DNA from: Thysanoteuthis rhombus
Taxonomy: Eukaryota > Mollusca > Cephalopoda > Oegopsida > Thysanoteuthidae
NCBI GenBank assembly: GCA_963457665.1
Contig: OY735227.1
Coordinates: 48,136,252-48,200,251 of the forward strand
Direction of reading: 5' to 3'
DNA length: 64,000 nucleotides
In this document: positions 5,510-41,747 of the stretch, one piece after another
Numbering within the stretch: the first letter of the stretch is position 1
How the letters are laid out: every line of letters begins with the position of its first letter
Program-made: the position numbers and the translations under genes
The notes under the pieces: generated by a model
Databases searched by the model: none
What the model saw: the letters and a program-made list of their open reading frames with translations, nothing else
Told to the model about the DNA's origin: nothing

Positions 5510-5690
5510 TACTTTGCTTCATATGAATTTTATTGAAGTGAAGAGGATTCATGTTACCCCAAAGTCTATCAAGCTTTTTACCATTGGCATCCTGAAAAGC
5601 ACGCCAAGAATTTTTCGGTAAATCTTTCCAGGCGTGCAAAGAATATTCCAAGAGAGGAACAAAGGTCTCTTTACTGGCGGTGTTGAGTTC
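5510..5690 (-). CDS. Hemocyanin terminal exon: last codons, stop and 3' UTR
   Basis: Acceptor TTTTTTTCTAACAG at 5691 follows a clean pyrimidine tract. A phase 1 entry completes a Gly codon and adds TQHRQ, then TAA at 5673-5671. About 140 nt later comes AATAAA (minus strand, 5534-5529), with a T-rich stretch beyond. Stop, signal and downstream element in this order make a good terminal exon, but the link across a 3.7-kb intron is inferred from phase and strand only. Confidence 0.6.
5529..5534 (-). terminator. Poly(A) signal AATAAA of the hemocyanin gene
   Basis: AATAAA on the minus strand, about 137 nt after the proposed stop, followed about 30 nt later by a run of T. Cleavage is likely near 5510. 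Confidence 0.55.
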
Positions 5691-8600
5691 CTGTTAGAAA
5701 AAAATGAACAAGAATCATAATTAAATGGAAATACTAAGAAAAAATGAACCTGGGTGAATACAGTGCCAAAAGTATTTAATATGTTACTAAAAGTCCATTT
5801 TAACATACAGCCACAAAATTGACAGAATTTGGTCCAAAAACTAAATGAATACTGAAGAAAAAATGTGAAACAGAATGTACAATCTTTAATGAACCATTAA
5901 AAAAAAACTTTACTTGTTATATAAATATTAGAAAATGGATATATATCCGAAGTTATTTCTCTTCCTAATTCTCAACTTTCTTTACATCATTTATACACAT
6001 GTGTATGTGTGTGTGTGTGTGTGTGTGTGTGTGTGTGTGTGTGTAAGTAAACAATAGGGAGGGAGACTGATCCTGGAGTAAAAGTATATGGAGACTTTAT
6101 TTGTAAATTAATTGATTCATAAATGAAATAATTAGTATGCTATACATGTTTAGGGAGTGCTGTTTCCATCTTCAGTAGCACGTGAGTACCTTTTAGTGGT
6201 TAAAAGGTTGTCGTAGAAATCAAATTTATCATGAGATATTTTGCTTTGAAAGCAAACTTGGAAATCAAGAATGAGGATTCCTAGGAGGTCATGATGATGA
6301 GTCCTGACTTTATTATGTCTGTGAAGAAATCTGTGGTGGTTTGGTTGGATATTCTCTCCGAAGTAGTAGCAGCATTCATGACTATTTTATTGATTGTACT
6401 AATCAGAGGAGGTAGGCATTCTTAAGCATTGGCTGTCAAAGATACTGGGGAGCAGGATAGTAGTTAAGTATCAGACGATTTGGGTACTTAGTAAGTTTGA
6501 GATTAGGCTATGTCTACTGTTAATCAAGGTAGAGGGGTAGGGTTTGAAGAGGTCCTTATTATGTATTATCGAGCATCATTTGGGAAATGCATGTTCTGTA
6601 TCCTTAATGGTCATTGTAGATGTTCTGAAAAGTCAGATAACTTTGAGTCGTACAAGTAAAACGGATAATACATAGGGGTCTATAGCTTGTGTAACTGTTG
6701 GATATACATGAAAGGGGGATTAGGAATGAATAGGATAAGGTAAGTTTGTAACATTAATCGTATGTGGGTAGGAATCCAAGTTGTATGTACGGGATATATA
6801 TATATCACGGCGTGTTTGGGCATATGTAAATAATAGTCTAAGGTACAGGTGTGAAGATAGTGGATTAGTGAGTATATGATAATTAGGAGTCAGAGAATTA
6901 TGATGTTGGAGATCGGTGTGGTTAGGGTGGTTGAGTTTAGTGTCGAGTTCTTTAGGGTAGAGGGTTTTAAGTTTGTTAATCCACATATCTTTATGTGGTT
7001 CTAGGATTCTAGTCGTGTCGGAAGGTGTACTTTTGTCTATTTTTCAAATTGTGAATCCAGCGTCTGTACCGAAATTGTGTACGGGGGAATTGTGGTTGCA
7101 GCATAGACCATTCTTTTTTGTCTCAGGGTTGGAAGAATTTTACGGTTTTTGGTGAAACTTTGTTATTTATTATACTGTTACTGCTAATCATGTCTATCGT
7201 TTTGGTATCTGTGGTAGACGATGAAGCATAGTTCTTAGAATATTTCTTTGTGTTCTGTTTTGAGTGTGAGTACATTCCATCTTTTATTGATTTATGTAAC
7301 AGAGGTGGGAGTGTAAGGTGGTTATGAGTGGTGAACGGTCGGGTTTATTTTTGTTTGAGAATTTCTTCTCTTGACATTGCAGTGGCCTTTTTTATTCGGG
7401 TATTTGTATCTTCTAGTAAATATACTCGTTTAGTGGAATGTTGTCGTAAGTTATAGATTAGTTCACTATCTGTAGAGCTAATTCTCCTAATTCTATTTGT
7501 GTGTAAAAATGGTAGTTTTTTTTTCAAGTGTTTGAGATGGGCCAATTTAAAGTGAAGGTAGTTGTGAGTATCTGTAAGCTTACTATGGAGAGAGTCAAGG
7601 TTTCTATAGTTATCAATATATATATATGCAAGAGTCAATTGATTTCTCATAGCCAAATCAGAGCGAGCTGTGTGTAGAGTTCAAGTGTGTGAAGAATTTC
7701 TCCTGTTTGGCTTCAACTCCTGTGCATATATAAAAAGAATATCATCAATATATATGACAGAAGTAGTATATGTCAGTCTCTAGGTAGACGTATGTCTCTT
7801 CGAATTTGCCCATGAAGATGTTAGCTACTTCTGTGCCCATGTCACAGTCTTCCATCAACAGGAAGTGTCTATTGTTGAAATTGAAACTATTGATTGTGAT
7901 AACATGTTGCATCAGGGTGGTTACCGTTTCTGTTTTGGGTTCTTTAGTCGTTCTATTGTTAAGGGCTTCTCTGTGAGCTCTAGCTGTGCTTCCTTCGTGT
8001 TTAATATTAAAACATAGGGATTTGACGTCCATAGTAACTATAAACGCTTTTCATGGGATCGTCTTGATGTGTTTGACTTCGTTCGTTGACAAGAGTTCAG
8101 TGGTGTCTCATATGTAGGATTGAACTTGCGTAGCTACGGGGTTGGATGTGGTGGTGCACACGTTTCGATAGTTTGGTGGTGTGGCAGTAAACCAAGGTTA
8201 TCTAATTTGTGGAATTTCGAAACAGGATGGAACGTAGCAGGATTCGTGGAAATGGGTTTAAATGTATCTAATGTTCTTTCATCTATATTGCTATCGCTGT
8301 GCATCTCTGATGTGAATTATTATGTTTTGGTATTCGGTGAAGGAATCAATCGGGATTTCTTTTGTAAAATTTTGAGTTATTTAATCGTCTTAGTTTCTAA
8401 AAGGTATCCATCAACACCCCAAATGACTGAACTTTCTCCCTTATCTGCTCTAAAGGTCATTAAGTCAGTATTATTTTAGGTTTGTTGAGGGATTCTCAAT
8501 CTTCAATGATAAAGTTATCGTGTGGTTGGGGCTGATTATTGTGATTGTTGATGTAGATTTTGATGTCTTCTCTTACTGTTAGTTCAAATGTTTAGATAAT

Positions 8601-41677: not shown

Positions 41678-41715
41678 CAACTTCCTACCCACCAGTCTAG
41701 CAATGTAGACTGCTC

Positions 41716-41747
41716 TGATGAGCTCATCTCGAACACTGCTTTTTATA
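41716..41747 (-). promoter_or_regulatory. Hemocyanin core promoter: TATA box and initiator
   Basis: TATAAAA lies at 41747-41741 on the minus strand. An initiator-like TCAG follows, with its A at 41716, 31 nt downstream of the first T of the box, which is the canonical spacing. This gives a 5' UTR of about 39 nt before the first ATG at 41677. The motifs and spacing are visible; the start site is inferred. Confidence 0.55.

Follow-up and report, generated by a model that had tools for sequence, protein, structure and literature searches.

The window, a 64,000-nucleotide stretch of the Thysanoteuthis rhombus genome (contig OY735227.1), contains a hemocyanin gene on the minus strand that runs from an ATG at 41677 to a TAA at 5671–5673. 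Open frames, together with splice-site scores and phases, served to rebuild the gene, the totals and bounds of an initial annotation being known beforehand. That annotation had claimed a complete gene of 14 exons with agreeing phases at every junction, and the rebuild arrives at the same exon count, with phases that agree throughout and all 13 introns of the GT–AG type. The spliced coding sequence measures 10,035 nt and encodes 3,344 amino acids; with the stop counted it has 3,345 codons, the total given earlier. Introns account for 25,972 of the 36,007 bases between ATG and stop. There is no frameshift in the assembled exons, the sole stop being the last codon, and the remaining two frames of the spliced sequence carry 129 and 268 stops. 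The span from a TATA box to an AATAAA is likewise present, with consensus matches to TATAAA starting at 41747 and to AATAAA starting at 5534.

Features of the hemocyanin gene, in order of transcription

41742..41747, minus strand: putative TATA box TATAAA, 70 bp upstream of the ATG; consensus match only
41624..41677, minus strand: exon 1, first part of the signal peptide (MMRSLNHLPLLCLAVILT), ends in phase 0; donor score only 2.2
37227..37257, minus strand: exon 2, 31 nt, completes the signal peptide (FWMSGLGTVN-G) and has a phase-1 end; from splice scores and phase
35904..37139, minus strand: exon 3, functional unit a; from open frame, splice sites and homology; 87% identical to 6r83 unit a
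34508..34970, minus strand: exon 4, first part of unit b, internal intron of phase 2; from frame and splice sites
32218..32999, minus strand: exon 5, second part of unit b; unit b is 79% identical to 6r83 unit b
28991..30229, minus strand: exon 6, unit c; from frame, splice sites and homology
27240..28487, minus strand: exon 7, unit d; from frame, splice sites and homology
25127..26371, minus strand: exon 8, unit d*, which shares 61% identity with unit d
22497..23518, minus strand: exon 9, first part of unit e, internal intron of phase 0; from frame, splice sites and homology
19432..19669, minus strand: exon 10, second part of unit e; from frame, splice sites and homology
18087..18748, minus strand: exon 11, first part of unit f, internal intron of phase 0; from frame, splice sites and homology
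11588..12170, minus strand: exon 12, second part of unit f; weak acceptor (−2.1), placed by frame and homology
9394..10605, minus strand: exon 13, covers unit g as far as PGK and has a phase-1 end; donor score 4.9
5671..5690, minus strand: exon 14, 20 nt, G-TQHRQ and stop TAA, followed by the 3′ UTR; acceptor score 7.1
5529..5534, minus strand: putative polyadenylation signal AATAAA; sequence match

Support for the gene model

Stop-to-stop frames on the minus strand contain large hemocyanin blocks from about 41.8 to 9.4 kb. Splice-site scoring returned one donor and one acceptor of matching phase at nine of the 11 block-edge junctions; the other two are the junction between signal and unit a, which lacked a passing phase-1 donor and was resolved by the small exon 2, and the unit-f intron, which lacked a passing acceptor. 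Pfam models of the tyrosinase domain and/or the hemocyanin beta-sandwich match all 10 of the exon frames scanned, a set that leaves out the second part of unit e and the two tiny exons, and the second part of unit e is covered by matches to PDB chains. Over its residues 30–3339 the predicted protein aligns to residues 1–3312 of the squid chain 6r83 in one stretch, with 6509.9 bits. Because every frame scanned with Pfam matched and a single stretch of 3,310 residues aligns on 6r83, chance is excluded as the source of the gene model. The 14-exon model is thus confirmed as a clean full gene model, useful though unsurprising for the clade, and its weakest parts are exon 2 (31 nt) and exon 14 (20 nt).

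Several other elements were observed in the window. The 5.9-kb unit-f intron holds remains of a LINE-like retrotransposon (14516–16785, plus strand, antisense to the gene) with a reverse transcriptase domain at 15306–16295, and related copies, 72–77% identical, lie at 39272–40129, 43567–44358 and 46021–48146. The same intron contains a tandem array of units of about 97 bp (12491–13900) that lies next to the second half of unit f. Outside the gene, a 5S rRNA-like element on the minus strand (48931–49040) matches the Rfam model over its full length but scores only 48.3 bits and has numerous broken pairs; it seems less likely to be a working gene than a 5S pseudogene or a SINE derived from 5S. 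Two perfect tandem copies of 110 bp (61421–61642) may reflect either a recent duplication or an effect of assembly.

The two tiny exons and the ends of the chain

Within intron 1 (4.4 kb), exon 2 is the sole candidate above threshold; when the thresholds were loosened, four further candidates appeared, the best of them scoring −1.2 against 6.8 for exon 2. Its score taken alone is nevertheless moderate evidence, since 24 of 200 dinucleotide shuffles of intron 1 gave at least one candidate as good. This moderate excess over chance bears on an alternative that we consider unlikely, in which a GC donor at 41620 closes exon 1, which is then joined straight to exon 3, giving 13 exons and a signal peptide of 20 residues. 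Such a donor would be in phase 1, the product would read ...ILTV-G-NLIRKNV, and the donor flanks score 3.1 before any GC penalty, compared with 2.2 at the GT donor (41624). However, GC donors are rare, and the 5-point penalty that they were given in the splice scoring removed 41620. Exon 2 is favoured because of this rarity and because the SoH3 gene of Sepia officinalis has a phase-0 intron in its signal sequence. That intron, as described in the Sepia study (PMC3945787), is matched by the 14-exon model only. The mature chain would begin with NLIRKNV, which lines up with residue 1 of 6r83, and this start is the same with or without exon 2.

Exon 14 was found by reading near the gene end given in the initial annotation rather than by a full scan of the 3.7-kb last intron. 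At the 5′ side of this intron, an alternative phase-1 donor at 9400 scores 2.2, compared with 4.9 at 9394, and would make exon 13 two codons shorter. Left unspliced, exon 13 reads PGKGN-stop, with an in-frame TAA just past the donor, whereas the spliced product ends PGKGTQHRQ-stop. A chain that terminates in exon 13 as PGKGN, with exon 14 noncoding, would agree with this unspliced frame and with the squid chain, which as deposited in 6r83 extends only two residues beyond the aligned PGTG, compared with five residues after PGKG in the present gene; it also draws on the search for a last exon having covered the region near the gene end. We regard such an early end as quite improbable, as the last intron scores well at both its donor (4.9) and its acceptor (7.1). 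The spliced ending PGKGTQHRQ-stop is preferred because Sepia SoH3 carries a phase-1 intron in FU-g, according to its description (PMC3945787), and the FU-g frame here is split nowhere else.

The position of this last intron invites a further interpretation. Units b, c, d, d*, e and f all end at the alignment column of the unit-g PGK, with a phase-1 intron after each; the last intron therefore shares both column and phase with six of the seven between-unit introns, the one after unit a sitting four residues further on. Because its place and phase match those of a linker intron although no unit follows it, and because cephalopods lack FU-h, we lean towards reading it as the old g–h linker intron, with the 20-nt last exon as a probable remnant of the linker that once led to unit h, since lost. 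This reading is based on one gene and depends on exon 14 being right. In the Sepia account the corresponding last intron is listed as an internal FU-g intron (PMC3945787). If our reading holds, the tail intron would offer a small clue to the loss of unit h in cephalopods.

Functional units and the proposed product

Alignment of the eight units reveals seven His columns and five Cys columns that are invariant. The initial annotation had stated that all units keep six copper-binding histidines and the thioether cysteine, and this is borne out in eight of eight. The seven invariant histidines comprise six at the copper site and one of an HH pair, if the copper-ligand assignment of these columns is presumed to follow that of octopus FU-g, from which we took it. 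The thioether motif CC-x-H is invariant in all eight units, with the thioether Cys two residues ahead of the second His. Two further Cys pairs are invariant in all units, and a third occurs in six, b and c being the exceptions.

Identity between units d and d* is 61.2%, compared with 39.2–46.2% for other unit pairs. Introns between units are of phase 1 in all seven cases, as is the intron between the signal and unit a. With a pattern excluding proline, eight N-glycosylation motifs were found across the whole protein, and none of them falls in units c or f.

The locus is almost certainly an intact gene for a secreted decapodiform hemocyanin subunit, for which secretion, the binding of copper and oxygen, and assembly into decamers are all suggested by homology. 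A signal peptide of about 29 residues would be removed to leave a mature chain of about 3,315 residues, with a calculated mass of 380 kDa and pI of 5.7. The chain would consist of eight tyrosinase-like units, arranged a-b-c-d-d*-e-f-g, each of which, by homology, is expected to hold a copper pair on six histidines and to bind one O2 reversibly. Ten such chains may assemble into a cylinder in which units a, b, c, d, e and f form the wall, and d* and g form the inner collar. This prediction follows the layout of wall and collar in the hemocyanin of the squid Todarodes, as given in its description (PMC6503924).

It is very improbable that the locus is instead a silent or decaying paralog still intact in appearance. 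Sepia has three isoforms that differ in expression, as reported (PMC3945787), and a non-expressed copy would be conceivable on that ground; however, 3,344 codons are maintained here without a stop or frameshift, and the sequence shares 83% identity with squid over units a and b, with functional residues kept.

Comparison with squid and other cephalopod hemocyanins

The sequence relatives compared were PDB chains only. Of these, 4yd9 is taken by us to be squid (Todarodes pacificus) hemocyanin. The likeness to the T. pacificus protein lies in colinearity with 6r83 over residues 30–3339 and in an identity of 83.0% (685/825), counted over units a and b in the alignments listed; the differences are sequence divergence and the behaviour of d*, which is an outlier in its unit scores. 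The squid hemocyanin paper (PMC6503924) contains the terms 6R83 and Todarodes, once each.

By bit score, seven of the eight units match best at the same position of the squid chain, with a and b, and e and f, queried as pairs. The exception is d*, which scores 708.7 bits against squid unit 4 and 665.4 against squid unit 5. Unit d scores 746.5 against squid d and 617.9 against squid d*, and d against d* within the present gene gives 617. Judged by bit score, unit d* (25127–26371) is thus nearer to the d unit of squid than to its d* counterpart, a pattern suggesting either that the squid collar unit has changed faster or that d and d* once underwent conversion. Gene conversion is disfavoured by a comparison of sums, which is not a full test: the positional pairing (746.5 + 665.4) exceeds the crossed pairing (617.9 + 708.7). 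Because the positional sum is the larger, positional orthology of d and d*, with uneven rates, is the favoured interpretation.

A decapodiform origin had been proposed in the initial annotation from the unit count and the d/d* pair. Assignment of the gene to a decapodiform cephalopod hemocyanin subunit is supported by the eight units, by the 61% identity of d and d*, and by colinearity in one stretch with squid 6r83. This is consistent with the published account, in which cephalopods are without FU-h and the number of units is seven in Tetrabranchiata and Octobrachia and eight in Decabrachia (PMC3945787).

The closest described gene structure is that of Sepia SoH3, for which the published text reports eight units with duplicated d/d′, phase-1 linker introns and internal introns in the signal (phase 0), b (2), e (0), f (0) and g (1) (PMC3945787). 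The intron-bearing units and phases are identical in the present gene, in a comparison made at the level of unit and phase, and the signal and g introns here rest on the two tiny exons. Further likenesses reported there are the six copper histidines, the thioether, the absence of the third Cys pair from b and c, and the lack of a usable N-glycosylation motif in c. SoH3 differs in length, with 3,338 aa and an ORF of 10,017 bp versus 3,344 aa and 10,035 bp here, and in its signal of 26 aa versus about 29 aa.

Which Sepia isoform the gene resembles most is answered differently by two sequence features. For the qPCR primers of SoH3, whose sites lie in unit c, the best mismatches are 3/20 (forward) and 3/21 (reverse); for SoH1, with sites in unit g, they are 5/25 and 5/25, and for SoH2 they are 9/23 and 5/26. 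These mismatches lean weakly to SoH3. The glycosylation motifs appear to lean away from it, because the extra FU-e and FU-f sites described for SoH3 were not found here in a motif search excluding proline; the distribution of motifs fits the general cephalopod pattern (PMC3945787).

Among other cephalopods, Octopus and Nautilus genes likewise have phase-1 linker introns, in keeping with all molluscan hemocyanin genes analysed in the study concerned, but have seven units and no d*. Internal introns number three in Nautilus and four or five (both figures are given) in octopods, according to that study (PMC7931591). The signal, b, e and f introns are common to E. dofleini and Sepia, and the g intron is common to N. 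pompilius and Sepia, as stated in the Sepia study (PMC3945787). The architecture is therefore already known, having been in print since 2014 for SoH3 (PMC3945787), and the gene is ordinary for its clade. Its model serves annotation and isoform comparison, and agrees with the published intron pattern of Sepia.
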